A stretch of DNA of 39,920 nt from an uncultured Bacteroidota bacterium. Lineage in GTDB: Bacteria; Bacteroidota; Bacteroidia; UKL13-3. The notes beneath the pieces are model-generated. The model did no database searches. It saw only the letters and a list, made by a program, of their open reading frames with translations, and was not told where the DNA came from. Every line of letters begins with the position of its first letter. The stretch's first letter is position 1. Where the stretch lies: positions 1-39,920 of the forward strand of contig CAIUQQ010000370.1 of NCBI GenBank assembly GCA_903901345.1. The letters run 5' to 3'. Position numbers and translations under genes: made by a program. This document shows positions 4,092 to 39,526 of this stretch, piece by piece.

Positions 4092-4112
4092 TTTTTAATA
4101 TAAAACATTGCT

Positions 4113-4826: not shown

Positions 4827-4834
4827 TAAATTTA

Positions 4835-4871
4835 AAAGATAAGCTGCACTGAGAAGAGCAGCTTATTTTTT
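4835..4871. terminator. Bidirectional terminator-like hairpin between convergent genes
   Basis: AAGATAAGCTGCACT-GAGA-AGAGCAGCTTATTTTTT. Confidence 0.8.
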
Positions 4872-4891
4872 ATGAAATCATTGCCAATACC

Positions 4892-7651: not shown

Positions 7652-7730
7652 AACTTATTTAGATTTTTTTTAGTTTTGAGGATATTTGAATATCAATTTA
7701 CAAAGTAAAAAACATTTTTAATATTAAACT

Positions 7731-8870
7731 TTACATTTCCTTAAAAGTGGTAATAGACATGGTTTGATTATGAAGTTCACATATAGAATTTTTTAAAAAA
7801 GGTGAAATTTCACCATATGAATAAAAGCCACAAAGTATAGTATTATTACCTAAAACATCTCTTACACCTTCTATTTCTTCTTCAATTAATTGTTTTAAAA
7901 CTAATTTTCTGCCAACACAACTAATTAAAATAGCTAATTCAGGATTTTTATTACTTTGAATTGTGAAATTAGCCGCACCTACAGCTCCGTCAATTAATCT
8001 ATCAGCATTTGCTTTCATTAAACGCACATAAGAACCTTCGGGAATGTCGCCTGCAAATGTTAGTGACTGTGCTTCATTATTAATTGCCAAAATAGTTCTA
8101 ACTACAGGAATATCTTCTTGTTTTACTCTTAAGTTTAATGGAAATAATAGACCAGAAGCTGGTAAATCTTTTGCGTATTCTTCACCTAAAAACGATTTGT
8201 ATAAATCTAAAGCAGGTTTACCATCTAATTCAAATAGAACATTGTTTTTTGATTTGGTAACTAATCGTTCAATGCCAAAACTATCCCAACCACCAAGGGA
8301 ACCATAACCTATATTTATGTTATTTCCATAAAATCCAATTGCAGCTACTATTTTACTTTTGAAATTTGCATTTTCGGTTACAATAAATGTCTCTTTAAAA
8401 TTTGCTCCGTCACCAGCTAAGCCACCGGTAACACTAATTTGTTCAGGTAAACTAGCACGTAAACCTTTAACTAATTCCGAACCATTTACATTTAAACCAT
8501 CAGATAAGACAAAAACGTGTTTTAGTTCTTCTTTAGGCAATAAATTCATCAGTGATTCTCCAGCTTTAAAGCTATCGTTAGGGCTTAAAATCTCAATGCT
8601 TTTGTAAATTATTTTTGTTTTTTCAAATAATATTGCTGTTGCAACAATGGAATCATCGTAAACATTTGTACTAAGTATTTCCCCTGAAGTAGAGCTTCCA
8701 ATAAAAATAGCTTTGCTAAATTTATTTTTTAAATGGCTTAAATTAGCATTATTTTTAATGTTTAAAGTGGACCCAAATACTAATACTAAATTTGCATTTT
8801 CTAGCAGTTCTTCACCATTGATTAAGCTCCAACCTAATGTTTCTGTAAACTTGTATTGCGCTATTTTCAT
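7731..8870 (-). CDS. FIST N/C domain signal-transduction protein
   Basis: VLVFGSTLN...AIFIGSSTSGEI...HVFVLSDGLNVNGSELVKGLRASLPEQISVTGGLAGDGANFKETFI and C-terminal GRKLVLKQLIEEEIEGVRDVLGNNTILCGFYSYGEISP, typical of FIST proteins. Confidence 0.9.
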   Translation of the reverse strand: MKIAQYKFTETLGWSLINGEELLENANLVLVFGSTLNIKNNANLSHLKNKFSKAIFIGSSTSGEILSTNVYDDSIVATAILFEKTKIIYKSIEILSPNDSFKAGESLMNLLPKEELKHVFVLSDGLNVNGSELVKGLRASLPEQISVTGGLAGDGANFKETFIVTENANFKSKIVAAIGFYGNNINIGYGSLGGWDSFGIERLVTKSKNNVLFELDGKPALDLYKSFLGEEYAKDLPASGLLFPLNLRVKQEDIPVVRTILAINNEAQSLTFAGDIPEGSYVRLMKANADRLIDGAVGAANFTIQSNKNPELAILISCVGRKLVLKQLIEEEIEGVRDVLGNNTILCGFYSYGEISPFLKNSICELHNQTMSITTFKEM

Positions 8871-8931
8871 TAGTTTTAATATTTATTTCAAATGTATATT
8901 ATTTAAAATAAATATTAAACCTAATTTTGTT

Positions 8932-9678
8932 TTATTTTTTAAAATACAAATCGCCCAAAGTATAGGCTAGGGAATCATCTGCAGATAATTGAAAAAGTTC
9001 GTTGTTTTTTAAACCGAACGCACTATAACCCAACGGTTCTAATAATTCATATATAATTTTACGGTTTTCAGCAGTACTAATTTCTATTTGAATAAGTGGG
9101 TTAAATTTTTTAATTGTATTTACCAAATGAGGAAATAAGTAAATTTCATAGCCTTCTACATCGCATTTAATAAAATCAAGTTGAGTAATATTGGCAAACA
9201 ATTCATCAGGAATTTGCATTTCTGCTTCAAAAGTTTCTAATGCAGAATTGTCGTTTTCGGCACTTAACACATGTGTTAATCCATGTCTGAAAACACCATC
9301 AATAACTGGCGTTCCCATTTCTATTTTTTTGTTTTCAGCACCTAAAGCAGTTTGGTGAAGCGTAATGTTTTTCAAGGCAAATTTATGTGCATTGCGTTTA
9401 AAAACATTGGCAAAAAGAGGAACTGGTTCAATGGCTAAAACCTTACCTGTAGCACCACTTAATTTTGAAATATTGGTACTATAATAACCAACGTTAGCAC
9501 CTATATCAATACTTACAAAACCTGGCTTTATTATTTTTTTTAAAAAAAATAATTCGGGATATTGATTCTTTAAAAAACCAAGATTTGTAATGCGTAAATA
9601 AGCATCACTCACAATGGCTAAATATCCTTCTAAGCCAAACGATTTTAATAAAATACTGCGTACTGTTTTTTCAATCAT
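8932..9678 (-). CDS. FkbM family methyltransferase
   Basis: KPGFVSIDIGANVGYYSTNISKLSG...VLAIEPVPLFANVFKRN...LDFIKCDVEGYEIYLF. Confidence 0.9.
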   Translation of the reverse strand: MIEKTVRSILLKSFGLEGYLAIVSDAYLRITNLGFLKNQYPELFFLKKIIKPGFVSIDIGANVGYYSTNISKLSGATGKVLAIEPVPLFANVFKRNAHKFALKNITLHQTALGAENKKIEMGTPVIDGVFRHGLTHVLSAENDNSALETFEAEMQIPDELFANITQLDFIKCDVEGYEIYLFPHLVNTIKKFNPLIQIEISTAENRKIIYELLEPLGYSAFGLKNNELFQLSADDSLAYTLGDLYFKK

Positions 9679-23804: not shown

Positions 23805-26800
23805 TTATTTACTGATTACTAATTTACTTTTACTTATTCCACCAAACTTATTTTGCGCATTTATAAAATAAATGCCATTGCTTAAAGCAGATAAATTAAC
23901 TTCCAAATTGGTTTGATGGTTATTGGTTTGTTGGTTATAAACTAACTTTCCCGTTACATCAAAAACTTCAATATTTGCAATAGTTTGGCTTGATGAAATG
24001 GTGACTATTCCAGAAGTTGGGTTGGGGTAAATGGTAATATGATTTGATGTTGTATTTAATTCATTAATTCCCACCGTTGCATCTTGAATAATGGTTACTG
24101 TTTTTATGTTAGAACCAGCAGTAAATGTGGCTGTGGCTGTTCTTTGAATACTAGTTGGATTTTCAGTTACATTAACATTTAGCATGTCATTTCCATTGCC
24201 AGAAGTTTTGTTAAAAGTTACCCATGGTTGGCTGGCATTTACTAACCAAGTTCTATTGCAGTTTATAGTTACTTGTTTGCTACTAGCTACCGAAGAATAA
24301 CTTAAATTCTGAGGTGTTATGTTCAAGCTATCATTTAATCCATTTCCTGAAAAGTTAAAAGGCAACGACCATTGAACTAAAGACAAAGCATCACCATTGA
24401 ACAATTTGAACCCTCCAGCCATTACCATATATAACTTAAAATCACCACTTTTCGCATTGTTTTTATAATCAAAAACAAAATCATATTCAGGAGTGGTGTT
24501 AGTTGAAAGTGAATTAATTGTTTGTGGCTTTGCAAATGAGTAATTCCACCAAGTGGCGTCAAAAACTCTTGTATTTACACCTTGTGTATCGTTCCAAATT
24601 TTTATAAAACTGTGGTTGTCTAAATTCTCAAATCTTCCTCTTACATATTCAGCATTTAATGCCGTTATATTATCTAACCAAGGGTAAAATTCAATGGTTT
24701 CATTAGGGTCACAAATATCGTTGTCATTGCCTTTACTATCGGGGTTGTTATCGTCATCAATAGTAGCAGAAGTGGTGGTTGAATATACTAATGGGGTAAC
24801 AGGAATTGAAATACATGTAGTAGCATAATCCTGACCGTTTTCTTGCACCACAAAATCAATATAAACACTCTGCCCAGGAGGAGTTTTGGGGTCTATATCT
24901 ATTTCAAATTCATCGGCCGACCAAGCTTTGTTACTCCAACCAATATTATTTAATGCTGATGAACTGTCTGTAATTTTTATATAAGGACTGTTACTTCTTA
25001 CTTTACAAATTCCACTTACTATTGATTGTCCGTTTGCTTTTTGATTGGTACATTCTACTTTAAATCTTGCCTTTTTTCCTGCATCTACAAAGTTTCGAGG
25101 ATTAGATGGATTTGCATTGATGGTAGTTGGTAAATTATAACTATAAAAAGATGCAAAAGCTGGTGATAATTTTGCTTGATCAATGGCAGCTAAGTTGGTT
25201 AAATAAATATTGGAGTTAGGATTGGAAAAAGTTTTGCTATTAATATTATTTTGGGTTTTGCATCCTTTAATGTCTGTTACAGTTACAGAGTTGCCTTGAC
25301 ATAAAAATGAAGCAGTATTGCTTGTTTGACCATTTGACCATAGATAAGAATATGGAGCTGTTCCATTTGTTACAATTACACTTGCTGTTCCACTGCAAGG
25401 TCCACTACATTTTGTGATATCAGAAGCAGTAATAGTTAATGTAGGAATTGGGTTTACAATAATAGTTTTGGATGCCGTATTCTTACAACCTGTTGTAGTG
25501 TTTGTTCCTGTAACCGTATAAGTAGTGGTTCCTGTTGGTGGCACAAATGCAACTCCATCAGTTACTGCGCGTGACCAAGAGTAGGTATTAGCATTACCAC
25601 CTGCTGTTAAAGTTATGCTTTCACCTGAACAAACAGCTATTGCTGTAGCACTGGCTGTAACAGTTGGCAATGGAATTACTGTAATTGTTTTTGTGGCAGT
25701 GTTCTGACATCCTGTAGCTGTAACTGTTCCTGTAACTGTATAAGTGGTGGTTCCTGTTGGAGGAACAAATGCAACTCCATCAGTTACTCCGCCTGACCAA
25801 GTGTAGGTATCGGCACCGCCTCCTGTTAACGTTATGGTATTACCTGCACAAACTGTTGTTGCTGTAGTATTGGCGGAAATGGTTGGAAGAGTAGTAATTA
25901 CCGTAATAGTTGTCGTGGCTGTGTTCTGACATCCTGGTATAGTATCAGTTCCTGTAACAGTGTAAGTGGTGGTTCCTGTAGGAGGAACAAATGCAACTCC
26001 ATTCGTTACTCCGCCTGTCCAAGTATATGTAATTGCTCCTCCTCCTGATAAAGTTATGCTTACGCCTGCACAAACTGTGGTTGCGGTTGCATTGGCAGTA
26101 ATAGTTGGCAATGGATTAACCGTAATAGTTATTGTTGCCGTGTTCTGACAACCTGTGGCTGTAACTGTTCCTGTAACAGTGTAAGTGGTGGTTCCAATAG
26201 GAGGAACAAATGCAACTCCATTAGTTACTCCACCTGTCCAAACGTAAGTATTGGCTCCTCCTCCTGTAAGCGTTATGCTTGCGCCTGTGCAAACTGTTGT
26301 TGCCGTTGCGTTAGCAGTAACAGCTGGACCTACATATATTGTATTCCTTAATACCGAAACCTTGCTGTAACCACCATCAGTAACAGCAAGGTCCAACTTG
26401 CCGTCTCCATCCAAATCACCTGTTGAAACGCTCAAAGGTGTTCCTGTTGAAAAATCTACTTTCGTGGCAAATGAAATTGTTCCACTGCTGCCCGTATTTT
26501 TGAATACTGAGACAGAGTTGGAACCATTGTTCGCAACAGCAAGGTCTAGCTTGCCGTCCCCATCCAAATCGCCTGTTGAAACGCTACTAGGTTGTGTTCC
26601 AGTTGAAAAATCCACTTTTGCTGCAAAGGAAATTGTTCCACTACTGCCTGTGTTGCGGAATACCGAAACATAGTTGGAACCATAGTTCGTAACAGCAAGA
26701 TCCAGCTTGCCATCTCCATCCAAATCACCTATTGAAACGCTCCTAGGATTTGAACCCGTTGCAAAACCCACGTTTGTAGCAAAGGAAATTATTCCACGTC

Positions 26801-29183
26801 TGCCAGTGTTACGTAAAACCGAAACAGAGTTGGAACCATAGTTCGTAACAGCAAGGTCAGTCTTGCCATCTCCATCCAAATCGCCTTTTGAAATGTTGCT
26901 AAGAGCATATGATCCACCCGATGTAAAATCCACTTTCGTAGCAAAGGAAATTGTTCCGCTACTGCCTGTGTTGCGGAATACCGAAACATAGCCAGAAGTA
27001 ATCCCTACAGCGAGGTCAGTCTTGCCGTCCCCATCAAAATCATCTGTTGAAACGCTATAAGGATATGCTCCTGTTGGATAGTCCACTTTCGTGGCAAAAG
27101 AAATTGTGCCACTGCTGCCCGTGTTTCGGAATACGGAAACAGTATAGGAAGAATAATTTGCGACAGCAAAGTCAGTCTTGCCATCTCCATCAAAATCGCC
27201 TGTTGAAACGCTAATAGGTTGTGTTCCAGTTGAAAAATCCACTTTAGCGGCAAAGGAAATTGTGCCACTGCTGCCTGTGTTTCTGAATACTGAAACATTG
27301 TTGAAACTATTATTCGCAACAGCAAGGTCTAGCTTGCCGTCTCCATCAAAATCACCTGTTGAAACGCTATAAGGATTTACTCCTGTTGGATAGTCCACTT
27401 TCGTGGCAAAAGAAGATGAATTGATTGTACCGCCACAGGCAAAGGTGGTAATAAATGGTTGAGAAGAGTAAACAGTTAAGCCATTGGCAATATTAGTTAC
27501 AGAAATAGGCTGGTAACTGGCGCCAATTGGCACAGTAACAGTAAGCGAGGTGGCACTGCCAGTAGATACCGTGGCTTTGGTTGCGCCAAATAACACGATG
27601 TTGTTGGCAGGTGTAGTGTTAAAATTAGTTCCAGTTATATTTACTGTTGTTCCAACAGAACCAGAGGTTGGGGTAAAAGAAGTGATGGTTGGCGGACATA
27701 TTCCTTCAAGATTACGGAATACTGAAACAGTGTTGGAACCAGAATTTGCAACAGCAAGATCCAACTTGCCATCTCCATCCAAATCGCCTATTGAAACGCT
27801 CCTAGGATATGTTCCTGTTGTAAAATCTACTTGAGAGGCAAAGGAAATTGTTCCGCTGCTGCCTGTGTTGCGTAATACAGAAACAGCGTTATAGTAATTT
27901 GCAACGACAACAACAACAGCAAGATCCAGCTTGCCGTCTCCATCCAAATCACCTATTGAAAAGCCAAAAGGTGGATTTCCTCCAGTTGAAAAATCCACTT
28001 TTGCTGCAAAGGAAATTGTTCCGCTACTGCCCGTGTTGCGTAATACGGAGACATTATTGGAATTAACATTCGCAACAGCAATGTCCAGCTTGCCATCTCC
28101 ATCCAAATCGCCTGTTGAAACGCTATTAGGTGATGTTCCTGTTGTAAAATCAACTTTAGCGGCAAAGGAAATTGTTCCACTACTGCCTGTGTTGCGGAAT
28201 ACTGAAACAGAGTTGGAATTAAAATTCACTACAGCAAGGTCCAACTTGCCATCTCCATCCAAATCGCCTGTTGAAACGCTATAAGTTTGTGTTCCTGTTG
28301 TAAAATCTACTTTCGTAGCAAAGGAAATTGTCCCACTACTGCCCGTGTTGCGGAATACCGAAACATAGCTAGAGGTCTCATTCACTACAGCAAGGTCCAA
28401 CTTGCCATCTCCATCCAAATCGCCTACTGAAATGCTTTGAGGATATGTTCCGGTTGTAAAATCCACTTTAGCGGCAAAGGAAATTGTTCCGATACTGCCT
28501 GTGTTACGAAAAACGGAAACAGTGTTGGAAGCATTGTTCGCAACAGCAAGGTCTAGTTTTCCATCTCCATCAAAATCGCCTGTTGAAACGCTATTAGGTT
28601 GTGTTCCTGCACCTGCAGTAAAGTCAACTTTCGCAGCAAAAGAAATTATTCCACCGCTGCCTGTGTTACGGAATACCGAAATAGTGTTGGAACCATAGTT
28701 CGCAACAACAAGGTCAGTCTTGCCATCTCCATCAAAATCGCCTTTTGAAACGCTATAAGGATTTGATCCTGTTGTAAAATCCACTTTGGGGGCAAAGGAA
28801 GAAGAAGTGATTGAACCACAAGGAAAGGTGGTTATGAATGGTTTTGAGGAGTAAGCTGTTAAGCCATTGGTAATATTAGTTACAGAAATAGGTTGGTAAC
28901 TTGCTCCAGTGGGAACTGTAACGGTCAAAGAAGTGGAACTTCCAGCAGTAACTGTTGCTCTAGTTGCGCCAAAGAAAACAATGTTATTGGCAAGTGTAGT
29001 GTTAAAATTAGTTCCAGTTATAATTACCGTTGTTCCAATAGCACCAGATGTAGGCGCAAAAGAAGTAATTGTTGGTACCTGTGCAAAACTGGAATAGCCA
29101 AGGAAAAGAAGGAAGAATGTAGAAGCAATATAACGAAAGTTCAATGCTTTTTTGTTTGCAATTATTGTTGTGTATGTTTTCAT
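23805..29183 (-). CDS. Large secreted T9SS cargo: two IPT/TIG + 7x FG-GAP/VCBS modules, four Ig-like repeats, SprB-like repeat, T9SS type A sorting domain
   Basis: Signal peptide; TITSFAPTSGAIGTTVIITGTNF (IPT); repeated KVDFxTGxxPxSVSTGDLDGDGKLDLAVANxxSNxVSVFRNTGSSGTIS; repeated TVCAGxSITLTGGGANTYxWTGGVTNGVAFVPPTGTTTYTVTGT; SGTASVIVTNGTAPYSYLWSNGQT; C-terminal ITIYPNPTSGIVTISSSQTIANIEVFDVTGKLV. Confidence 0.93.
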   Translation of the reverse strand: MKTYTTIIANKKALNFRYIASTFFLLFLGYSSFAQVPTITSFAPTSGAIGTTVIITGTNFNTTLANNIVFFGATRATVTAGSSTSLTVTVPTGASYQPISVTNITNGLTAYSSKPFITTFPCGSITSSSFAPKVDFTTGSNPYSVSKGDFDGDGKTDLVVANYGSNTISVFRNTGSGGIISFAAKVDFTAGAGTQPNSVSTGDFDGDGKLDLAVANNASNTVSVFRNTGSIGTISFAAKVDFTTGTYPQSISVGDLDGDGKLDLAVVNETSSYVSVFRNTGSSGTISFATKVDFTTGTQTYSVSTGDLDGDGKLDLAVVNFNSNSVSVFRNTGSSGTISFAAKVDFTTGTSPNSVSTGDLDGDGKLDIAVANVNSNNVSVLRNTGSSGTISFAAKVDFSTGGNPPFGFSIGDLDGDGKLDLAVVVVVANYYNAVSVLRNTGSSGTISFASQVDFTTGTYPRSVSIGDLDGDGKLDLAVANSGSNTVSVFRNLEGICPPTITSFTPTSGSVGTTVNITGTNFNTTPANNIVLFGATKATVSTGSATSLTVTVPIGASYQPISVTNIANGLTVYSSQPFITTFACGGTINSSSFATKVDYPTGVNPYSVSTGDFDGDGKLDLAVANNSFNNVSVFRNTGSSGTISFAAKVDFSTGTQPISVSTGDFDGDGKTDFAVANYSSYTVSVFRNTGSSGTISFATKVDYPTGAYPYSVSTDDFDGDGKTDLAVGITSGYVSVFRNTGSSGTISFATKVDFTSGGSYALSNISKGDLDGDGKTDLAVTNYGSNSVSVLRNTGRRGIISFATNVGFATGSNPRSVSIGDLDGDGKLDLAVTNYGSNYVSVFRNTGSSGTISFAAKVDFSTGTQPSSVSTGDLDGDGKLDLAVANNGSNSVSVFKNTGSSGTISFATKVDFSTGTPLSVSTGDLDGDGKLDLAVTDGGYSKVSVLRNTIYVGPAVTANATATTVCTGASITLTGGGANTYVWTGGVTNGVAFVPPIGTTTYTVTGTVTATGCQNTATITITVNPLPTITANATATTVCAGVSITLSGGGAITYTWTGGVTNGVAFVPPTGTTTYTVTGTDTIPGCQNTATTTITVITTLPTISANTTATTVCAGNTITLTGGGADTYTWSGGVTDGVAFVPPTGTTTYTVTGTVTATGCQNTATKTITVIPLPTVTASATAIAVCSGESITLTAGGNANTYSWSRAVTDGVAFVPPTGTTTYTVTGTNTTTGCKNTASKTIIVNPIPTLTITASDITKCSGPCSGTASVIVTNGTAPYSYLWSNGQTSNTASFLCQGNSVTVTDIKGCKTQNNINSKTFSNPNSNIYLTNLAAIDQAKLSPAFASFYSYNLPTTINANPSNPRNFVDAGKKARFKVECTNQKANGQSIVSGICKVRSNSPYIKITDSSSALNNIGWSNKAWSADEFEIDIDPKTPPGQSVYIDFVVQENGQDYATTCISIPVTPLVYSTTTSATIDDDNNPDSKGNDNDICDPNETIEFYPWLDNITALNAEYVRGRFENLDNHSFIKIWNDTQGVNTRVFDATWWNYSFAKPQTINSLSTNTTPEYDFVFDYKNNAKSGDFKLYMVMAGGFKLFNGDALSLVQWSLPFNFSGNGLNDSLNITPQNLSYSSVASSKQVTINCNRTWLVNASQPWVTFNKTSGNGNDMLNVNVTENPTSIQRTATATFTAGSNIKTVTIIQDATVGINELNTTSNHITIYPNPTSGIVTISSSQTIANIEVFDVTGKLVYNQQTNNHQTNLEVNLSALSNGIYFINAQNKFGGISKSKLVISK
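25440..26335 (-). repeat. Four tandem Ig-like coding repeats (about 72 aa each)
   Basis: Recurring TxxCxGxxITLTGGGAxTYxWTGGVTNGVAFVPPTGTTTYTVTGTxTxxGCQNTATxTITV in the 1792-aa ORF. Confidence 0.85.
26335..27422 (-). repeat. FG-GAP/VCBS coding repeat array, second module (7 units)
   Basis: Seven units of about 51-56 aa with DxDGDGKxDxAV, counted in the ORF translation. Confidence 0.9.
27700..28803 (-). repeat. FG-GAP/VCBS coding repeat array, first module (7 units)
   Basis: Seven units counted in the ORF translation, same consensus as the second module. Confidence 0.9.
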
Positions 29184-29253
29184 ATTTGTCTACTTTGTTT
29201 TTAGCATGATTAAAGTTACTTCGACAAGCTCACCAACCATTAATCCTACTGAT

Positions 29254-29525
29254 TTTTATTTACTGATTACTAATTTACTTTTACTTACTACTCCATTTTC
29301 AGTTTGTACATTTATAAAATAAATGCCATTGCTTAAAGCAGATAAATTAATTTCCAAATTGGCTTGATGGCTATTGTTTTGTTGGGTATAAACTGACTTT
29401 ACTGTTACATCAAAAACTTCAATATTTGCAATAGTTTGGCTTGATGAAATGGTGACTATTGAATAAGAAAAAACAAAGAAATGTTAATAAGAGTATTTTA
29501 GTTTATTTCATAGTTTATTTATTTA
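29254..29525 (-). pseudogene. Chimeric remnant: lipoprotein 5' end fused out of frame to a T9SS sorting-domain 3' end
   Basis: 29254-29460 closely matches 23803-24009 (3' end of the 1792-aa gene); 29455-29525 closely matches 22462-22532 (5' end of the 296-aa lipoprotein gene). Junction at shared ACTATT; start region reads ATG AAA TAA. Confidence 0.85.
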
Positions 29526-29536: not shown

Positions 29537-29592
29537 AGTATTTATTTTTCATAAAATACCTAGAAATAGGTATTTTATGAAAAATAAATACT
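29537..29592. repeat. Perfect 26-bp inverted repeat with GAAA loop
   Basis: AGTATTTATTTTTCATAAAATACCTA-GAAA-TAGGTATTTTATGAAAAATAAATACT. Confidence 0.95.
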
Positions 29593-29839: not shown

Positions 29840-29946
29840 AGCTAAAGCATTTTTTTTTCAAGCGAATTAGATAAAGGTAAAATGAATCAAGTTTTTGAGG
29901 GGATTAATTTAAAAAATAAATTTTCATATATATTTTTTTTTAACTA

Positions 29947-29974
29947 AAAAATACCCATTTATAGGTATTTTTTT
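29947..29974. promoter_or_regulatory. Inverted-repeat element upstream of the T6SS operon
   Basis: AAAATACC-CATTTATA-GGTATTTT, about 36 bp upstream of ATG 30012; same AATACC-N8-GGTATT layout as the core of 29537-29592. Confidence 0.5.
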
Positions 29975-30011: not shown

Positions 30012-30941
30012 ATGAACCAAGAAAATAAAGATAACGAAGTATTTGACAATTTAGATCTGACAGCTGAATTCTTGGTTTCTATTAGTAAAAGCAACGTAAA
30101 CTTTGATTATTATTATTCAACTGTAGGTAATAAAAAACGCTCATATAGAAAAGATGTAAATTTTTTCAAGATTACTAAAGGTGAGCGAACAGAAAAATTA
30201 GAAATAGAAGTAAATAGACAAGGTATATATGATTATTTACCAGAAGGCTTGTTTCATCAGACATTTTCACCTAAAAAAGGTGGTGATTCTGAAAAACAAA
30301 TTATTGAGGAAATAAAAAGACAAAGAGAAAATGAAAAACTGGCTAGAATGTTTTTTTTGCCTATTGAAAATGAAATTTTTCTTCACAGATTAGACTTAAC
30401 AAAACTTGAAAATGATTTATTTCTAAACAATTCAGAAAGTAGAAATAAATATATTGATCTAATTAAACATTGGCGACTTTCAAATATATTTTCTAGTACT
30501 CAAATTGTTGAAATTATTAGATTTTTCCCTTATTTACACTTGTTTAGAAATAAAACAAAATACATAGAGTCGTGTATTTCAAAAATGATAAATTATGATG
30601 TGCAAATTACCAAAGTGCAAAATTATCTTGTTAAATTAACTGAAGAAAGTTTAAGTTGGAGTCTTGGTAAAAAAGATTTGGGTCTTGAAACAATTTTAAG
30701 TTCTGAAGTCAATTTATACAAAACAAAATATTTTTTAAATATTGGCGAAATCAAGAGAAATGATTTTAAAAAACTACTTCCACATACCGAAAACATAAAA
30801 ATAATAAAAAATTTAATGAATTTATTTTTCAGTGCTGATTCATTACAAGAAATAAATATATTTTCATCAAAAGAAGAAAACAAACTAATCTTATCTAAAG
30901 AAGAAAACGAATCTTTTTTGGGTTTTAATTCATTCATATAA
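30012..30941 (+). CDS. tssG: Bacteroidota T6SS baseplate TssG-like protein
   Basis: MNQENKDNEVFDNLDLTAEFLVS...KITKGERTEKLEIEVNRQGIYDYLPEGLFHQTF...ARMFFLPIENEIFLHRLDL; motif resembles Bacteroidota TssG and the gene sits next to tssN/tssK/tssO. ORF track begins at GTG 29976; ATG 30012 preferred. Confidence 0.65.
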   Translation: MNQENKDNEVFDNLDLTAEFLVSISKSNVNFDYYYSTVGNKKRSYRKDVNFFKITKGERTEKLEIEVNRQGIYDYLPEGLFHQTFSPKKGGDSEKQIIEEIKRQRENEKLARMFFLPIENEIFLHRLDLTKLENDLFLNNSESRNKYIDLIKHWRLSNIFSSTQIVEIIRFFPYLHLFRNKTKYIESCISKMINYDVQITKVQNYLVKLTEESLSWSLGKKDLGLETILSSEVNLYKTKYFLNIGEIKRNDFKKLLPHTENIKIIKNLMNLFFSADSLQEINIFSSKEENKLILSKEENESFLGFNSFI

Positions 30942-30943
30942 CA

Positions 30944-31774
30944 ATGCTATATTATTTAATTACTTATTCAATTTTTACCATTATTACAATGGTATTTATA
31001 ATTATTTTCAACTTTAATTACCTTAAGTTGATAAGAAAATTTTTACCAACAATTGTATTAATTGCTGCCATTATTGGTTGTTTACCGTTACTCATTTATT
31101 TTTTGAATGAAGATTTCTACATTACAAATTTTATTATAGATTCTATTTTCATTATACTTACAGGCATTCTATACGTATTTTTATCTCGAAAAATGCTCTC
31201 TCAACTTCCAGACAAGCCAATTGAAACATTTTTCAGTTTTGCAGTACTTTTTACATGTGTAATAGCACTCGTAAATTTGATTTTTCTTCATTATGTTTTC
31301 AATACTGATTTAGCAGGATTCCTGTCTTTGACAGCATTTTTCTTTTTGTTACCATCTTTAGTTGTGTATAGTTTTGGATTATATATTCAAATTCCAAAAC
31401 TTAAATATGAAGAATGGATGTTACCTGACTATGAAAACGAGCCTGATTATGATAGCATGGATTTAACTAAAATAAATATTGTTGATTTAGAGTTTCAAAA
31501 AAATAATAATGACGATACTTATACCAAATTCACATTAAAAGCACCTCTTGAAATTAACTTTGGTCAATGGTTTTATGGATTTGTGAAAGACTATAACATC
31601 AAATTTATTGAAAGTCCGATACAAAGCAAAAACAGCATGAATCAAGCTTCTAGTTGGTTGTTCTATGTTAAACCTAATTTTTGGAGTGATAAAAAATATA
31701 TTGACCCAAAGAAGACAATTAATGATAATGATATCAAAGATAAAACTTGGATTATAGCAAAAAGAGTAAACTAA
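30944..31774 (+). CDS. tssN: T6SSiii membrane protein TssN
   Basis: Multiple N-terminal TM helices, then soluble tail MDLTKINIVDLEFQKNNNDDTYTKFTLKAPLEINFGQWFYGFVKDYN...SSWLFYVKPNFWSDKKYIDPKKTI...WIIAKRVN, typical of TssN. Confidence 0.85.
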   Translation: MLYYLITYSIFTIITMVFIIIFNFNYLKLIRKFLPTIVLIAAIIGCLPLLIYFLNEDFYITNFIIDSIFIILTGILYVFLSRKMLSQLPDKPIETFFSFAVLFTCVIALVNLIFLHYVFNTDLAGFLSLTAFFFLLPSLVVYSFGLYIQIPKLKYEEWMLPDYENEPDYDSMDLTKINIVDLEFQKNNNDDTYTKFTLKAPLEINFGQWFYGFVKDYNIKFIESPIQSKNSMNQASSWLFYVKPNFWSDKKYIDPKKTINDNDIKDKTWIIAKRVN

Positions 31775-31775
31775 A

Positions 31776-32930
31776 ATGATAAAAGAAATACAACACTTAC
31801 ATGTAAATTGGATTGATGGAATGAAAATTTCCAAAAATCACTTTATTGAATTAGAAAATGCCTTTAAAGATGAAATTAGAGACAGTTTTGCTAATTCAAT
31901 AAATATATTTAATTATGGAGTAATTCCAACCGAAACCAATGATGGTAAAGGATTAGATTTGGAAGTTTTGAATATACAAGGTGGAAACATTAAACTTAGA
32001 CTTAACTATTGTAGAGCAATTACTCCAGCTGGTAATAGAGTAGAAATTGTAAATACTTTAAAAATTAAGGATGTAAATTTCACTATTGAAAGTGAAACAA
32101 TCAATAAAAATTCTGGTAACCTTATTTATGATATTATTTTAAAAGTAGAGCCTTTTAATAAAAAAGCAGTTGGCCAGCCAAACCCAAATGAAAATCCACC
32201 AAGAAACCCATATTCTATTGCCGAATACACTGTTTCCGTTGTACCTACTGAACAGGTAAACATTGACAATTTAAGTATTAATTATTTAAAAATTGGTAGA
32301 TTAATTGGTAAGGGAGATGATATTAATATTGACTCATCCTTTATCCCTGCATGTACTTCTATTTTGAGCAATCAAATACTTATACAGGCTTTTAAGGTAC
32401 TTTCTGAAGACGTTAGGAATATTAATAATAATTGCTTAAGAATTATTCAAAAAATTTATGTAAAAAATCAAAAATCTAGTTTAGCTGAAAACGTTAAATA
32501 CATGTCGCTAAATTTATCCAAACATATTACTACAAATTATTTTACATTTAAAAATTTTGCTCCTCATCAAGCTCCAATTTTTATGTTTAGCGAAATAATC
32601 AAAATTGCTAACATCATTTTTTATTGTTTAGAAACAATTCCCGAAAAAGACAAAGAAGAATTAATTAATTATTATACTGAATGGGGTGATTTGAATCAAG
32701 GCGCCCTTGAAAGCATGATAAACGATGTTTGTTTTTTAGAATACGACCACAACGATATTAGAACATCATTAGTTAAAATAGAAAAGTTTTTGTTAAATAT
32801 CAATAATTTATTCAACAAATTAAATTCACTTGATTTGATAGGTAAAAAGAAAGATAGAGATTTTATAGTAAAAGAAGAACAAACATCCACCCAAACTAAA
32901 TCAAAAAAAGGTTGGTCGTTTTTAGATTAA
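31776..32930 (+). CDS. tssK: T6SS baseplate protein TssK
   Basis: N-terminal HLHVNWIDGMKISKNHFIELENAF resembles the TssK W-x-x-G-M-x-x-x-x-x-H-F motif; position next to TssN/TssO. Confidence 0.8.
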   Translation: MIKEIQHLHVNWIDGMKISKNHFIELENAFKDEIRDSFANSINIFNYGVIPTETNDGKGLDLEVLNIQGGNIKLRLNYCRAITPAGNRVEIVNTLKIKDVNFTIESETINKNSGNLIYDIILKVEPFNKKAVGQPNPNENPPRNPYSIAEYTVSVVPTEQVNIDNLSINYLKIGRLIGKGDDINIDSSFIPACTSILSNQILIQAFKVLSEDVRNINNNCLRIIQKIYVKNQKSSLAENVKYMSLNLSKHITTNYFTFKNFAPHQAPIFMFSEIIKIANIIFYCLETIPEKDKEELINYYTEWGDLNQGALESMINDVCFLEYDHNDIRTSLVKIEKFLLNINNLFNKLNSLDLIGKKKDRDFIVKEEQTSTQTKSKKGWSFLD

Positions 32931-32939
32931 TTATAACAT

Positions 32940-33458
32940 ATGGAACCATTAAATAAAAAAGAAAGAGAAAAAGCAGTATTTGATTTTTCAATACTATTCG
33001 TAATTACTGTTGCCATTTTGGTAGCATTATTAGTTTTAGCTTTTAAACTACCAGCTAAAATTAATAAAGATACATACAAACAAAATAAAAAATTGGAAGA
33101 AGATAGAAAAGAATTGAAAAAGCTTTCTAGTAATGTAGATAGTTTAATTAGTTTAATAAATACATCAAAGAATTCTTCTAATATTAATAATGCTGTTAAC
33201 AATAATAATATAGCAGTTATATTAGCTGAATTTGATAAAAAGGGAAAAGATACTACAACTAACAATAGTAAATTTTACATGCAGTTTTCTAGTATTTTAA
33301 AGGAATTAAAGGATCAAGTTGCTGATAACAAAAATTTAAGTGGGGACGATTGCAGTAAGAAATTAGAAGAAACCAAAAGAGAGCTAAAAGAGGCTAAAGA
33401 TGAAAGTGAAAAATATAAGGACAAATATGATCAATTAATTATCCAAATGAAAAATTAA
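32940..33458 (+). CDS. tssO: T6SSiii membrane protein TssO
   Basis: MEPLNKKEREKAVFDFSILFVITVAILVALLVLAFKLP: N-terminal TM followed by a coiled coil; size and position fit TssO. Confidence 0.78.
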   Translation: MEPLNKKEREKAVFDFSILFVITVAILVALLVLAFKLPAKINKDTYKQNKKLEEDRKELKKLSSNVDSLISLINTSKNSSNINNAVNNNNIAVILAEFDKKGKDTTTNNSKFYMQFSSILKELKDQVADNKNLSGDDCSKKLEETKRELKEAKDESEKYKDKYDQLIIQMKN

Positions 33459-33466
33459 TAAATAAG

Positions 33467-33991
33467 ATGAAAAGAAAAATTTTAAACTTTAGCCTAATAA
33501 TACTTTTAGGCTCATGTGCTACCATGTCGAAAGTAGCACCACCATTTACCAATGTTGAAAAAATTTCGAAATTAAAAATGGGAACCACTCTAAGTGTAGT
33601 AAATAGTACATTAGACATTCCACCATACAATATTTTAAGTATGCAGGAAGATGGTAGTGGCATATATGCCTATAATTACAGATTATTAGTTAGAAAAGCA
33701 ACTGTTCCTGAAGGCACTGATGGCGATAATTTATTACATAGTGAGCAGTACAATACAGCTGGAGAACCGAAGTATAAAGACGAAATAAAAACTGTTATTG
33801 CGGTATTTAAAGAAGGTAAATTATCTGCAATACATACCACTGAAGGTTGGGATAAAGCAGAATATTTAATGGTAGTGAACAATAATTTAAAATTATTGAC
33901 TAAACAAGATTTAGAGAAGTTAGATATTTTAAAAATAGGTGCTGATTATTTAGCAAAAAAAGGTCAAGTAATAAAACTAATTAAAAACTAA
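33467..33991 (+). CDS. T6SS-associated lipoprotein A
   Basis: MKRKILNFSLIILLGSCATMSK lipobox; paralogous to the next ORF. Confidence 0.75.
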   Translation: MKRKILNFSLIILLGSCATMSKVAPPFTNVEKISKLKMGTTLSVVNSTLDIPPYNILSMQEDGSGIYAYNYRLLVRKATVPEGTDGDNLLHSEQYNTAGEPKYKDEIKTVIAVFKEGKLSAIHTTEGWDKAEYLMVVNNNLKLLTKQDLEKLDILKIGADYLAKKGQVIKLIKN

Positions 33992-33995
33992 AAAC

Positions 33996-34667
33996 ATGAA
34001 AAAGTTTATTCAATATATATTATTAGCTTCAGTCGTATTATCATTTACTTCATGTGCTACCAAAATGATGTTTGACTCTAAAGTTCCATATTATACTTCA
34101 GTAGAAAATTTATTGAAACTTAAACCTGGAATGACCTTTAACTCAGTAAAAACTACACTTGGTATAGACCCTTATGATGTTTTAACCATTCAAAACGATA
34201 ACGGTGCAACAATTTATACATATCATTATAGACTAAAAGATAGAAAGTTGACAAGACCTTTAAATGATTTTATTAAAAGAGACTATGAACATACTGAATT
34301 ATTTCAAAAAGAAGGTGAACCTTGGTATAATCTTGAAGAAAAAATAGCATACTTATATTTTAAGGAAGGAAAGTATACATCGTTTATATCTGAAGAAGGT
34401 TTAAATTTGGCTGAATATGTGATGCTAATTGATAATAATTTAAGAATTATTTCGAGTGAAGATTTAAAAAAATTACAAGTAACTAAAATTGGCAATAATT
34501 ATATAACTAGCGATAGCACATACATTATTAAAATGGATAAAGAAACCAAAAAGAACTTGAATAATTTAACCCCTGCAAAGAAAAAAGGAAGTACTAAAGT
34601 TATTGTTGCAACAGTATTAATTTATCTTTTAGTAATTCCATCATTAGTATTTTTAATAGTGAACTAA
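33996..34667 (+). CDS. T6SS-associated lipoprotein B with C-terminal TM helix
   Basis: MKKFIQYILLASVVLSFTSCATK lipobox; C-terminal KKKGSTKVIVATVLIYLLVIPSLVFLIVN. Confidence 0.75.
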   Translation: MKKFIQYILLASVVLSFTSCATKMMFDSKVPYYTSVENLLKLKPGMTFNSVKTTLGIDPYDVLTIQNDNGATIYTYHYRLKDRKLTRPLNDFIKRDYEHTELFQKEGEPWYNLEEKIAYLYFKEGKYTSFISEEGLNLAEYVMLIDNNLRIISSEDLKKLQVTKIGNNYITSDSTYIIKMDKETKKNLNNLTPAKKKGSTKVIVATVLIYLLVIPSLVFLIVN

Positions 34668-34672: not shown

Positions 34673-34709
34673 AAAAAAGCTCATCAAACAAAATTTGAGG
34701 AGCTTTTTT
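34673..34709 (+). terminator. Terminator of the T6SS operon
   Basis: AAAAAAGCTC...GAGCTTTTTT immediately after lipoprotein B. Confidence 0.85.
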
Positions 34710-34726: not shown

Positions 34727-35467
34727 ATGAATACTGATATATTAAATGCCTACCAAGAATGTGGAAGAATTGTATTTGCATACAAAAACAATTTCGCATG
34801 CGATTCTCTTCAATTAAACTCAAGTGCTAAATTAAATGGTTTAGATAAAATTGAATTGATTCAAGCCATACTTTCAAACAATAGCAATATAGTTTTTAAA
34901 TCTTCTAAAAATGAATACCTGAAAACTGCAAACCAACTATTGGAAATTGCTTGCGCTGCAACATGTTCAAGGGTATTTTTTGAAAATGAAGGTAATATAA
35001 ATGTAGATATTGAAATTGATATTCCTGCTAACGATTTAAAACAAATAGAAACTATTGAAAAGTTTTTGAAAACTTACGATGAGAACTATTCCAATAATTT
35101 ACTGAATAATACTTTTGTTAATGTGTTTAGTCAACTTAAAAAAGATGAGCTTTGGAAAACTATTGAAAACTTGGTTTTATATGTAATAAATGCCGAAGAA
35201 TTAGTTATAAACAGATTTGAAATTGAAGACACACTAATGAAAGCTGGTTTTTCTATATCAAGTAAAAAAGTAAATAGAGGATTTGATTTAAATTTAAGTG
35301 AAGCAGAAACAACTGAAAAAGAAAATTTACCTCATACTTTAACCGAAAAAAACCAATTAGATGAATCTTTGAAAAAGTTTCTGTTTACTGTAAAAAATGA
35401 TTGGCAAGAACAAGAAATAATAGTTGCAATTACCTACTTGAAAAAGCTGTTTTCAAAATTTGGATAA
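34727..35467 (+). CDS. Hypothetical protein (246 aa) at the T6SS locus
   Basis: ORF MNTDILNAYQECGRIVFAYKNNFACDSLQLNSS...; no family recognised. Confidence 0.7.
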   Translation: MNTDILNAYQECGRIVFAYKNNFACDSLQLNSSAKLNGLDKIELIQAILSNNSNIVFKSSKNEYLKTANQLLEIACAATCSRVFFENEGNINVDIEIDIPANDLKQIETIEKFLKTYDENYSNNLLNNTFVNVFSQLKKDELWKTIENLVLYVINAEELVINRFEIEDTLMKAGFSISSKKVNRGFDLNLSEAETTEKENLPHTLTEKNQLDESLKKFLFTVKNDWQEQEIIVAITYLKKLFSKFG

Positions 35468-35468
35468 T

Positions 35469-36152
35469 TTATTTTTTAAACAACATGTCAAATAAACCTC
35501 CTGATTTGTTTGGTTTGTCTACAGGTTTTTCTTCAGTTGGTTTTTTTTCAAAGATGTTTTCATTGTTTTTTTTTTCAGAAGAAACTTCTTCTTCATCTAA
35601 AAAAAAACGACCAGTTGCTGTTTTCGTTTCTTCCTTTTCTTCTTGGTTTAAAAAACCTTCAATAAATGCTGCTGAAGGTATTTGTTGAGTTTGTAGTTCA
35701 GAGCTTTTGCTAAGTTCAAATACCAATACAAATGCTGGGTCTTCGTCTTCGCAATAAAAACTTTGTACAGGACCAAAAAACTCTTTCAATTGCGCAGTAT
35801 CGCAAGTAGGAAGGAATATACGCAATACCCTAGGATCATAAAAGCGAAAATAAAGTTCTTCGCCATCTTCGGTTTTTACTAATAAAAATTTTCTGAAATG
35901 GGTGTGAATAGTAGAAAAAGGCTCGTTGGTTTTGAGCATAACACCCCACGAATTGCCCCAACCTTCTTCAGTAAAAAAAGTTTTGAATTCCTTAAAATGG
36001 TTTGATTGAAACAAATAAGGACCCACATCCGCTAAATAGGCATCCCCTTTTTCGCGGTATAAGGACTCATGCTTAGGGTTTAAGTCCTTTGCTTGAGTTA
36101 TGGCTGCTTCCATTCGCGCAGCATCTAATAAAAGGTAATTTACGTGGTTCAA
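35469..36152 (-). CDS. DUF4123 domain T6SS effector adaptor/chaperone
   Basis: NYLLLDAARMEAAI...ESLYREKGDAYLADVGPYLFQ...EEGWGNSWGVMLKTNEPFSTIHTHFRKFLLVKTEDGEELYFRFYDPRVLRIFLPTCDTAQLKEFFGPV, a classic DUF4123 pattern. Confidence 0.95.
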   Translation of the reverse strand: MNHVNYLLLDAARMEAAITQAKDLNPKHESLYREKGDAYLADVGPYLFQSNHFKEFKTFFTEEGWGNSWGVMLKTNEPFSTIHTHFRKFLLVKTEDGEELYFRFYDPRVLRIFLPTCDTAQLKEFFGPVQSFYCEDEDPAFVLVFELSKSSELQTQQIPSAAFIEGFLNQEEKEETKTATGRFFLDEEEVSSEKKNNENIFEKKPTEEKPVDKPNKSGGLFDMLFKK

Positions 36153-36181
36153 AACAATTTCAAATATAAATATTTGGGGGT

Positions 36182-36427
36182 TTAAGGATACACCTTACAT
36201 TTTTTTCTTAACAAAATCCATTCTTCTTCATCCAATTCTTTTTGGTCTGAAACTTCTGTTTGTTCAAAGTTTTTATTAAACAAATTTTCTTCACAACGAT
36301 AGTAAATAGTTCCGTCTTCGGTTTTCAAATGAAAGTAAACCACACCACTTTTTATAGCTAGTACTTTTCCAATTGCATCTACCAATTTTAACTTTCGGTT
36401 GAATGAGGTGTTGAGGGCTGATAGCAT
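36182..36427 (-). CDS. Hypothetical small protein (81 aa) upstream of DUF4123
   Basis: ORF on the same strand just upstream of the DUF4123 gene. Confidence 0.6.
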   Translation of the reverse strand: MLSALNTSFNRKLKLVDAIGKVLAIKSGVVYFHLKTEDGTIYYRCEENLFNKNFEQTEVSDQKELDEEEWILLRKKCKVYP

Positions 36428-36639
36428 ATGTTCTTTACGGTTATTTTTAATTTACATTTTCGATTATTTATTCATTTGGGTAATCATTTATAAAACCACT
36501 TTCAAAAAAAGTAATTTAGTATTTTAAAACCACTTTTGAATTCCACAGTCTATTATATGTAAAGCTCATCATTAGTAAGTAAATTATTAAGATCCACCAA
36601 AAGTAACAACTTAACCAACCTTAATGCCATTTTCTTTTC

Positions 36640-36753
36640 TTAGCCTTCAATTTCTTTTTGTCTATAAACTATAGAAACTGCATAATATTTTATCAAACCG
36701 CCACCTTTTACACCTGGTTGTGTTTTTTGTACTGTTTTAAATTTAATAACCAT
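36640..36753 (-). pseudogene. Possible HU/HIG-like DNA-binding protein fragment
   Basis: Manual translation MVIKFKTVQKTQPGVKGGGLIKYYAVSIVYRQKEIEG* resembles the N-terminus of Bacteroidota HU-like proteins (M-x-[LI]-K-[FY]-x-x-V-x-[RK]-x-x-P...K[FY]YA); stops after 37 codons. Confidence 0.35.
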
Positions 36754-36772
36754 TTGTTTTATTTTTATTTGG

Positions 36773-37738
36773 TTATGGAATGGGGGTTTGTGTTTTTGTT
36801 ATAGGTGTTGGATCGCATAAAGATTTATTATTTAACACTTCCTTTATTTTTGAAGTTCTTCTAATTCTATCAGTTTGTTTTTTTAAATGTTCATATTTCT
36901 CCTCTGATTTTGTTTTAGCTTTTTTATCAATTTTATCATCAATTTTATTATTTTTTTTATCTTCTATGTATTTATTTTTTCCTTCAATTTTTGCTCTATT
37001 TTTAGCATTAATTTTTGCTTGTTGTTTTAATCTCTTTAATTGTTTTCTAGATAAATCTTCTTCATTTAAACCATTAATTAGTTTATTTTTTTCTTCAGTT
37101 TCATAGTCCGTTAAATTTTCCTTTTCAATTTTCGAAATATATTCTTTTTCAGCTGTTTTGTCATACATACGGTTTTTATATCCTTCGCTTTTACCGGTAC
37201 TATTCATCTCATAAAACTCCTCTTGTGTTGCGTCAAATCCATTAACTTTTTTTGATGCTTGGAAAACTGAAGATTCATCATATGATTGCAATTTATCAAG
37301 ATTATTCTTCTTCCAAAACCAAGCTGCGGATTGTGTTGGATATTTAGAAGATATTAGAGAAGGGTCATTCATTATTTCTGGATCATTAATTGAATCAGCA
37401 AACTTTTGATAATTATCTCTGCCTGTTACTTGAATGTATCCCCTCCCTTTGAATTTTTTCCCATCTCCTTCTTCTGTATTGCCTAAGTCAGCTCTACCTT
37501 CATATTTCTCTCCGCTAGCAATTTCTTCCGTGTAATGTAAATCGTCCGATTCATGGGCTAACTGACCTAAAAAAAGAGTTTGGTTATCTAATGTATTTAT
37601 TTCTGTTTTTTCCATAGAATTTATGACCTCATCAAATTGTTCATCCGATTTTTTAGGAAATATTTTTTTGAGTTGGTTTTTACAAACAGAATTAGCAGGG
37701 GCTTTCTTTTCAAGTGGACATGGCTGTTTAGCTTCCAT
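36773..37738 (-). CDS. GH19 chitinase/lysozyme-like T6SS effector candidate with charged C-terminal extension
   Basis: TLFLGQLAHESDDLHYTEEIASGEKYEGRADLGNTEEGDGKKFKGRGYIQVTGRDNYQKFAD...YPTQSAAWFWKKNNL, the GH19/lysozyme-like core; adjacent to PAAR and DUF4123. Confidence 0.85.
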   Translation of the reverse strand: MEAKQPCPLEKKAPANSVCKNQLKKIFPKKSDEQFDEVINSMEKTEINTLDNQTLFLGQLAHESDDLHYTEEIASGEKYEGRADLGNTEEGDGKKFKGRGYIQVTGRDNYQKFADSINDPEIMNDPSLISSKYPTQSAAWFWKKNNLDKLQSYDESSVFQASKKVNGFDATQEEFYEMNSTGKSEGYKNRMYDKTAEKEYISKIEKENLTDYETEEKNKLINGLNEEDLSRKQLKRLKQQAKINAKNRAKIEGKNKYIEDKKNNKIDDKIDKKAKTKSEEKYEHLKKQTDRIRRTSKIKEVLNNKSLCDPTPITKTQTPIP

Positions 37739-38102
37739 TATTTTCTTCTATTATTTTATAAATTTTTTCATTAATTAATTCTTCTGTAAAAATTTCAGCT
37801 AAAGTATCTCTTTCTTTATTCATTTTAAATAAGCTCCATTCAAATTCAAAGTTTTCTAAAGTATAAAATTCAATACCAAAAATATAAGAAAGACAAATAA
37901 AAATTGACTTATCTCCAACAGAATTAATGCCTAACTCTTTAAACCTTAGTTTACTTGCAGTAACAATATTATTAAACAATTTTAAATTCAAGATGAAGTC
38001 CATTGAGACAAGTTTATCTATAGACATTTTAAAGATTATTTTATCTACTTTTTCTGTATATAAAAAACTAATTTTATTATATTGTTCTGTATTAATTTTC
38101 AT
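37728..38102 (-). CDS. Hypothetical protein (124 aa) overlapping the GH19 gene start; immunity or chaperone candidate
   Basis: Overlaps the GH19 ORF start by 11 nt, same strand; no signal peptide or TM helix obvious. Confidence 0.65.
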   Translation of the reverse strand: MKINTEQYNKISFLYTEKVDKIIFKMSIDKLVSMDFILNLKLFNNIVTASKLRFKELGINSVGDKSIFICLSYIFGIEFYTLENFEFEWSLFKMNKERDTLAEIFTEELINEKIYKIIEENNGS

Positions 38103-38111
38103 AAAACTAAT

Positions 38112-38588
38112 TTATCCTTTCAACTTTGCTTGTGCGCATTTCTCACAAAAAGGTGTTCCATTTTTTGCACCTTGTTTCATACTTATTACTTGTGCCAATT
38201 TCGTTTGCATACTTGCAGGCATTCCCTTCATTACACTCATCAAAACAGGTGTCGGCATAGCTGCCATGCCTGCACTTCCTCCTCCAGCTTCACCAATTAA
38301 AACCGTTGGACAACCAACTGTAATAGCTCCACCATGGGCACATTGGTCGCCCATGCGGGCAGCAGGTTTGCCTCCAAAAAACACACCAGCGCTACCTAAT
38401 ACAATGGTATCAGGTGGGCCTGTACAAACACACATATCACCCATTACAGCAGCAGGCATTCCACCAATTAACACAGTTGGGCAACCTGGCCCAGAAATTG
38501 GCCCACCCACATGCGGTATAGGTGGCACACCTGGTGTTACCATCGGGCATACATGCATATCTCCAATTCTTGCTGCTGGTTTGCTCAT
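38112..38588 (-). CDS. PAAR-domain protein (double PAAR-like)
   Basis: MSKPAARIGDMHVCP...PHVGGPISGPGCPTVLIGGMPAAVMGDMCVCTGPPDTIVLGSAGVFFGGKPAARMGDQCAHGGAITVGCPTVLIG. Confidence 0.95.
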   Translation of the reverse strand: MSKPAARIGDMHVCPMVTPGVPPIPHVGGPISGPGCPTVLIGGMPAAVMGDMCVCTGPPDTIVLGSAGVFFGGKPAARMGDQCAHGGAITVGCPTVLIGEAGGGSAGMAAMPTPVLMSVMKGMPASMQTKLAQVISMKQGAKNGTPFCEKCAQAKLKG

Positions 38589-38600
38589 TGTTATAAATAG

Positions 38601-38936
38601 TTAATCATTTGCGTTATTATCCCTTTTCAACTCCTGTTGAAATTTATCCAATGCTAAGCTTACTGTATCTAAACCTATTCCATAAATACGAAATCCAACC
38701 CCAGCAATACAACCAACTGCTGCACCTGCAGGTGCTCCAAAACCTGCTGTTGGTATGGCACTTGCGGCAGCCCCAACTAAAGCACCACCAGTACATGCTT
38801 TACCATATTCTTTGGCAATTCTTCTTAATTCGGAAGTATCATAACTATGGCCATCCACCCCTGGAATTTTGTTTAACTCTCTTGCATTATTTCTATCTAT
38901 TTGCAAAACAGGATTTTCATTATTTTCGTTTCCCAT
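38601..38936 (-). CDS. Small protein with Gly/Ala-zipper membrane-like segment
   Basis: ACTGGALVGAAASAIPTAGFGAPAGAAVGCIAGVGFRIYGIGLD; directly upstream of PAAR. Confidence 0.65.
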   Translation of the reverse strand: MGNENNENPVLQIDRNNARELNKIPGVDGHSYDTSELRRIAKEYGKACTGGALVGAAASAIPTAGFGAPAGAAVGCIAGVGFRIYGIGLDTVSLALDKFQQELKRDNNAND

Positions 38937-38986
38937 AATTTATTTCAGTTTATTATTTTACTTTTTTATTTGAACCAAAGTAATAT

Positions 38987-39526
38987 TTACAACCAATTTT
39001 CAATTGTTTTTTCAATTTCTTTAATTAGATTTATTGGATCAACTTGGGGAGTATGCATTTTGCAAACTAGTGTTCCATTATTCAAATTAAATACTGATAT
39101 ATGATTGTCTAGTATACGTCTTACTAAATTATCTAAAAAATTACTCTCTGGTTCATAATTGAACTTCATAAAATATGGTTTTTGAATTTTATCCTTAAAT
39201 TTTGTTGAAATAAAAAATCTAATAAATAAAGATTTTCCAATAGCTACTTCAAACTTATTATTCAATCCAGAAACAATTATTTCAAAACAAGCATAATCAA
39301 TCGCATCAACTGGAATAACAACTCCATTTTGTGTACTTTGATCCTTGTGGATCTTTATTTGATACATCAAATTGTTTTTTTTAAAATTAGTAATCATTTC
39401 ATAGCCATAAGCATTGCAAAAACCAGCACAATCAAGTTCCATTGTTTTGAGTTTAAGCTCAACATTTTCACAATAGTTTTTGTTGGCCTCAAAAAATGGT
39501 GAAGGATCTGTTTCGTACTGTATCAT
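38987..39526 (-). CDS. Hypothetical protein (179 aa) in the PAAR cluster
   Basis: ORF MIQYETDPSPFFEANKNYCENVELKLKTMELDCAGFCNAYGYEM... Confidence 0.65.
   Translation of the reverse strand: MIQYETDPSPFFEANKNYCENVELKLKTMELDCAGFCNAYGYEMITNFKKNNLMYQIKIHKDQSTQNGVVIPVDAIDYACFEIIVSGLNNKFEVAIGKSLFIRFFISTKFKDKIQKPYFMKFNYEPESNFLDNLVRRILDNHISVFNLNNGTLVCKMHTPQVDPINLIKEIEKTIENWL

Follow-up and report, generated by a model that had tools for sequence, protein, structure and literature searches.

The closest described relative of the locus reported here is the type VI secretion system (T6SS) of the Bacteroidota subtype, T6SSiii, with its TssNQOPR complex (Bacteroides fragilis; Bongiovanni et al. 2024, PMC10781749). 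Systems of this subtype are commonly split into several loci, and the origin of their membrane anchor has been hard to identify, no T6SS-independent locus for that gene set having been found (PMC10781749). We analysed a 39,920-bp stretch of DNA (hereafter the window), which is one whole contig (CAIUQQ010000370.1, hereafter C370) of the 3.8-Mb, 414-contig draft genome of an uncultured Bacteroidota bacterium. It carries a tssG-N-K-O operon extended by two lipoprotein genes and, convergent with it, a T6SS cargo module. These baseplate/connector and cargo genes are probably parts of one near-complete T6SSiii, whose other core genes lie on two further contigs of the genome (C384 and C86), and the three contigs most likely represent one cluster broken by assembly.

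As in the B. fragilis-type T6SSiii (PMC10781749), TssN is encoded between TssG and TssK, and TssO, TssP, TssR, the sheath, Hcp, VgrG, ClpV, TssE and TssF are present. Unlike in that type, tssO stands with tssG-N-K rather than with tssQ-P-R, no tssQ was found, the G-N-K-O operon contains two BamE-like lipoprotein genes, and tssP and tssR are in an operon with a PKD/immunoglobulin-like (Ig) protein tagged for the type IX secretion system (T9SS), barrel-type proteins, a protein termed X and an ATP-binding cassette (ABC) transporter. Loci in metagenome-assembled genomes (MAGs) of a related genus within the same family (g3; genomes G021, G022 and G024; loci L050–L053, e.g. CAIUDH010000100.1) share the G-N-K-O order, the Ig-barrel-P-X-R order, the PAAR and DUF4123 genes after tssF and the presence of one T6SS per genome. 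They differ in having a second TssO/Q-like gene and contiguous G-N-K-O and P-X-R segments, and in lacking the lipoproteins and the shared palindrome described below. At g3 locus B (B-C-D-I-E-F; L026, L027, L028), ClpV is not adjacent to tssB, and two to three Hcp genes are present. The g3 and window TssN proteins are only about 33% identical.

Four same-strand genes at 30012–33458 matched the T6SS families TssG, TssN, TssK and TssO in Pfam and NCBIfam scans, and two paralogous lipoprotein genes follow them (E values are given after the profile names):

30012..30941, plus strand: tssG (baseplate); Pfam PF06996, 1.1e-8, above cut-off; 29–31% identical to g3 tssG
30944..31774, plus strand: tssN (membrane complex, baseplate connector; T6SSiii hallmark); Pfam PF17555, 5e-57, above cut-off
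31776..32930, plus strand: tssK (baseplate); below cut-off in NCBIfam (TIGR03353, 2.2e-9) and in Pfam (0.0083)
32940..33458, plus strand: tssO (membrane complex); Pfam PF17561, 2.9e-10, above cut-off
33467..33991, plus strand: BamE-like lipoprotein 1 (lip1); 41% identical to the next gene
33996..34667, plus strand: BamE-like lipoprotein 2 (lip2), with a C-terminal hydrophobic stretch; Pfam BamE PF04355, 0.0065, sub-threshold
34674..34709, plus strand: intrinsic terminator of the tssG operon; −17.8 kcal/mol, z = −6.9

A preliminary description of this DNA had recognised the operon and its lipoproteins at 30012–34667, the strong terminator at its end, and the absence of sheath, Hcp, ClpV, VgrG, TssE and TssF genes from the window; all of this was borne out. 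The family search that it had proposed placed TssG, TssN and TssO above their cut-offs and TssK below. We retain the TssK assignment because the gene sits in the conserved G-N-K order and its product is 28–37% identical to TssK from eight other T6SSiii loci (36–37% for the g3 loci, E about 1e-90). The tssN gene is single-copy in the genome. The ATG at 30012 is more likely than the GTG at 29976 to be the tssG start, since a palindrome occupies 29946–29974. Family scans of the T6SS contigs detected no TssJ, TssL or TssM, for which no genome-wide search was made.

C384 (9.7 kb) carries tssH-B-C-D-I-E-F, and C86 (9.6 kb; also L006) carries tssP, protein X (208 residues) and tssR. The C384 products include TssC (PF17541, 6.6e-225), Hcp (TssD, 6.6e-46), the OB domain of VgrG (TssI, 7.8e-24), TssE (3.6e-12) and TssF (4.9e-7). 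TssB, encoded beside TssC, fell below the Pfam cut-off, yet it is 64–65% identical to g3 TssB; immediately 5′ of tssB is the gene for an 826-residue, ClpB-type AAA+ protein with strong matches to the ClpV (TssH) of classical loci. On C86, TssP contains PKD domains, and a profile combining this protein with its relatives in g3 recognises the tssP of classical loci, while TssR is represented by its N-terminal (5.4e-23) and middle (1.4e-11) domains, the gene being cut at 333 residues by the contig end. TssN, TssC, Hcp, TssR and PAAR each gave one match in the genome. Thus, TssB/C, Hcp/VgrG/PAAR, TssE/F/G/K, ClpV, TssN/O and TssP/R were all found, and the genome search proposed in the preliminary description located what the window lacks, in agreement with its T6SSiii assignment, for which TssN and TssO had been the hallmarks. 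The presence of every core gene apart from tssQ and the tssR C-terminus refutes its suggestion of a reduced system as regards the core machine; this also disposes of a remnant as far as the core is concerned. The system is a near-complete T6SSiii seen through a fragmented draft, and in its core the finding is ordinary biology.

The preliminary description had overlooked PAAR, GH19 and DUF4123 genes at 35469–38588. These belong to a T6SS cargo module on the minus strand (35469–39526), convergent with the tssG operon:

34727..35467, plus strand: 246-residue protein encoded between the tssG operon and the cargo module, with which it is convergent; no family match
35469..36152, minus strand: DUF4123 effector-loading chaperone/adaptor; Pfam, 3e-31; NCBIfam Tla1, 1.4e-10, below cut-off
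36182..36427, minus strand: 81-residue protein of the cargo module; unassigned
36773..37738, minus strand: protein with a GH19 endolysin-like domain; Pfam GH19, 1.2e-5, at cut-off; PWe2 endolysin (PDB 9ms7), 3e-26
37728..38102, minus strand: 124-residue protein directly after PAAR, a position that in the g3 loci is also taken by a small gene
38112..38588, minus strand: PAAR spike-tip protein; Pfam, 6e-24
38601..38936, minus strand: 111-residue protein with a glycine-rich hydrophobic stretch; unassigned
38987..39526, minus strand: 179-residue protein; unassigned

No PAAR match other than the window protein was found in the genome, and the DUF4123 protein is 47–52% identical to those of g3 locus B. 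The best solved relative of the GH19 protein is the PWe2 endolysin; like such phage endolysins, it retains the GH19 core, including the HES, YE-R and GDGKKF-GRG-IQ-TGR stretches, but unlike them it has a C-terminal basic extension and is encoded in a PAAR/DUF4123 module rather than a lysis cassette. It is likely to be a peptidoglycan-cutting effector. With this module, the window holds both a baseplate/anchor operon and a likely weapon, a peptidoglycan hydrolase. A match of the 124-residue protein to the small g3 gene was not counted, as the profile used contained both. The 246-residue protein had no match in Pfam, NCBIfam or PDB, and its single-sequence structure model was of low confidence (predicted local distance difference test, pLDDT, 37).

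The contig ends bear on how these parts fit together: the window ends inside the cargo module, C86 inside tssR, and C384 after tssF. At its other end, C384 begins with the last 72 residues (up to the terminal KSPGDLIYNR) of an ABC permease, and ClpV follows. This fragment has matches in the surveyed stretches of five genomes (G322, G423, G126, G257 and G371; 37–47% identity, E 2.7e-15 to 2e-5); every match is an ABC gene placed immediately after tssR. In classical systems with a single locus, H-B-C directly follows tssR. The synteny therefore suggests that C86 lies beside C384; since permeases of the MacB/FtsX type are widespread, it is strong evidence and not proof. In g3, PAAR, effector and DUF4123 genes come after tssF and form a module of the kind found at the window's right end. 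The PAAR of the window shares 55–59% identity with the PAARs of g3 locus B and 51–53% with those after tssR. C384 is thus probably adjacent to C370. The cluster would then read (PKD/Ig protein-barrel-barrel-P-X-R)-(ABC-H-B-C-D-I-E-F)-(PAAR-GH19-DUF4123), convergent with (lip2-lip1-O-K-N-G).

Several results weigh against an intact system in a single cluster. An end-overlap search among C370, C384 and C86 found no direct join, so that their contiguity is inferred, and g3 carries its system as two loci on different contigs. TssK and TssB are below curated cut-offs; a genome profile search detected no second, tssQ-like gene, although the profile also missed the known tssO; the C-terminal part of tssR was not found in the assembly, in a search without a positive control; and no secreted or periplasmic immunity protein for the GH19 protein was recognised. 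If three distant chromosomal loci jointly built one machine, as reported for Chryseobacterium, the system would be dispersed, in keeping with the frequency of such arrangements (PMC10781749), with the roughly 29 kb of non-T6SS sequence left of tssG within the contig, and with G021, G022 and G024, where G-N-K-O-Q-Ig-barrel-P-X-R-PAAR and B-C-D-I-E-F-PAAR-DUF4123 lie on different contigs. We consider this unlikely, because, on the sides that face each other, all three contigs break off at or within T6SS genes, and both the ABC-permease/ClpV and the PAAR/DUF4123 synteny predict adjacency. The split across the chromosome entertained in the preliminary description is not established. The window is itself a complete contig, the contigs break inside or after T6SS genes, and synteny indicates that they had been neighbours. 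A decaying, non-functional remnant would account for the shortened tssR, the missing tssQ and the patchy occurrence in the genus, where only the source genome among 11 has tssN. It is improbable, as the contig end and not a stop codon cuts tssR, the other core genes are all intact open frames, and the effector retains its endolysin core.

A further link between contigs was found upstream of the operons:

29541..29588, no strand: long perfect palindrome with a core (TACCTAG-AA-ATAGGTA) similar to that of the palindrome before tssG; hairpin or bidirectional terminator; −30.9 kcal/mol, z = −13.5
29946..29974, no strand: candidate operator, the palindrome AAAAAATACCCAT-TT-ATAGGTATTTTTT, lying in the divergent intergenic region 5′ of tssG; near-identical copy on C86

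The core of the palindrome before tssG reads AAAAATACCCAT-TT-ATAGGTATTTTT, and the C86 copy, AAAAATACCCAT-AA-ATAGGTATTTTT, lies at 9520–9546 of that contig, before the Ig-barrel-P-X-R operon. For the pattern AATACC-N8-GGTATT, 0.01 chance occurrences are expected in the window, and none was found in 570 kb of other sequence from the source genome; the palindrome is likewise not present before the g3 operons. Its form resembles the 7-2-7 inverted repeats bound by NarL/FixJ-type regulators. It is best read as a candidate common operator of the two T6SS operons. The tssG copy forms a weak stem with a U-run, the alternative being a weak terminator; a common repeat or ordinary terminator was rejected, given the absence from the 570 kb and the position in a divergent intergenic region. 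The 29541–29588 hairpin holds a third copy of the palindrome's outer sequence and is possibly related to the operator.

The shared palindrome also bears on whether C370 comes from another organism and was wrongly binned. The reported bin contamination is 3.31%, the T6SS genes are absent from genus mates, and the tssG-lip2 region has a GC content of 26%, compared with 32% for the contig's left 29 kb. Such an error is nevertheless very improbable: the GC contents of C370, C384 and C86 (28–31%) are near that of the sampled genome (31.7%), single-copy T6SS genes complement one another across the contigs, and C370 and C86 have the rare palindrome in common. The low GC of the operon is compatible with acquisition. 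The system is patchily distributed, as elsewhere in the phylum, with tssN above cut-off in five of 65 genomes of the family and one of 11 of the genus. Against named genomes, a first scan with TssN was empty, and a second, alignment-based one returned only four uncultured Bacteroidetes MAGs, which appear from their isolate names to be of freshwater origin.

How the system would work can be proposed by analogy with established T6SSiii biology. TssN would anchor the TssK/G/F/E baseplate to the N-O-P-R envelope complex, contraction of the TssB/C sheath would push the Hcp tube, together with VgrG and PAAR, into an adjacent bacterium, and ClpV would recycle the sheath. DUF4123 would load the GH19 hydrolase, which would cut the target cell wall, and the shared palindrome would let one regulator turn on both operons.

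The lipoproteins, counted among the system's parts in the preliminary description, are supported in that role only by their operon position. The match of lip2 to PF04355 scored 16.7 bits, below the curated 23.2, and a lipoprotein structure model (pLDDT 55) was too weak for a fold search. Relatives are present in 35 of 388 sampled genomes of the class, and 19 of their loci were inspected, all without T6SS genes over about 1.5 kb on either side. A T6SS-specific family was thereby rejected, and the link between the T6SS and the lipoproteins is local. Given their place in the tssG operon, a role at the outer membrane or in peptidoglycan contact is possible.

Elsewhere in the window, a 1,792-residue surface-type protein is encoded 5′ of, and divergently from, tssG (23805–29183, minus strand). 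It has FG-GAP-like and Ig/PKD-like repeats, and its C-terminal tail, as read from the sequence, resembles a T9SS sorting signal; similar tail-like sequence occurs again at about 29250–29480.

Family scans of C86 delimited the variant anchor operon:

L006 (C86) 1002–9382: PKD/Ig protein, two barrel-type proteins and tssP-X-tssR

The first gene encodes a protein of 1,284 residues that has PKD repeats (PKD_5, 1.4e-64) and ends in a T9SS sorting tail (Por_Secre_tail, 2.4e-9), and the two barrel-type proteins, also upstream of tssP-X-tssR, are related to each other. The PKD/Ig-barrel-P-X-R order recurs in g3 and in families f21 and f61 (L013/L014, L091, L092, L093); in G300, a large protein without a profile match occupies the PKD/Ig position. 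Overall, families f1, f21 and f61 retain the module order, and f63 retains its R-ABC part. The survey included nine classical O-Q-P-R loci, all of which lack X, the barrel and the Ig protein, and the PKD/Ig-barrel-P-X-R-ABC arrangement is unlike the usual O-Q-P-R-H order. Against PDB, the X profile had no match and the barrel profile only a calcium-repeat (TSP3-like) similarity to an OmpA-family protein. In the TssP and TssR trees, the classical loci stand apart from the rest (100/99 and 100/100). The TssR tree groups the source genome with f21, f61, f63 and G322 (98/98), with several long branches, and the variant rows are not monophyletic there. Near the R-ABC locus, the stretches read from f21, f61 and f63 contain no gene for the sheath, Hcp, TssN or TssK. 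The f63 genomes encode full-length TssR-like proteins followed by the ABC transporter (L101, L102), and f63 stretches (L101, L102, L104, L107, L108) contain PAAR, ThiF-like and small ubiquitin-like genes; the f63 PAAR gene shares a contig with tssR-ABC, and in G257 that contig also has a contractile cluster resembling an extracellular contractile injection system.

One speculative account, to which we give limited credence, is that tssP and tssR came from a separate envelope system (T9SS-tagged PKD/Ig protein, outer-membrane barrel, TssP, X, TssR and MacB/FtsX-like ABC transporter), which other Bacteroidota families would have without a T6SS and from which T6SSiii recruited its outer anchor; the R-ABC-ClpV-TssB-TssC order of the source genome would then be transitional. 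The variant loci challenge the statement that no independent locus exists for this gene set (PMC10781749) only as a lead. To the preliminary description, the present analysis adds the cargo module, a probable order within one cluster, the palindrome common to two operons and the variant anchor operon; it is this operon that merits further work. The tssP-X-tssR operons, with their linked surface-protein, barrel and ABC-transporter genes, provide concrete loci for testing the origin of the anchor. If the surface protein and the barrel belong to the machine, they would suggest that T6SS killing by planktonic freshwater Bacteroidota may include a step of contact or adhesion.

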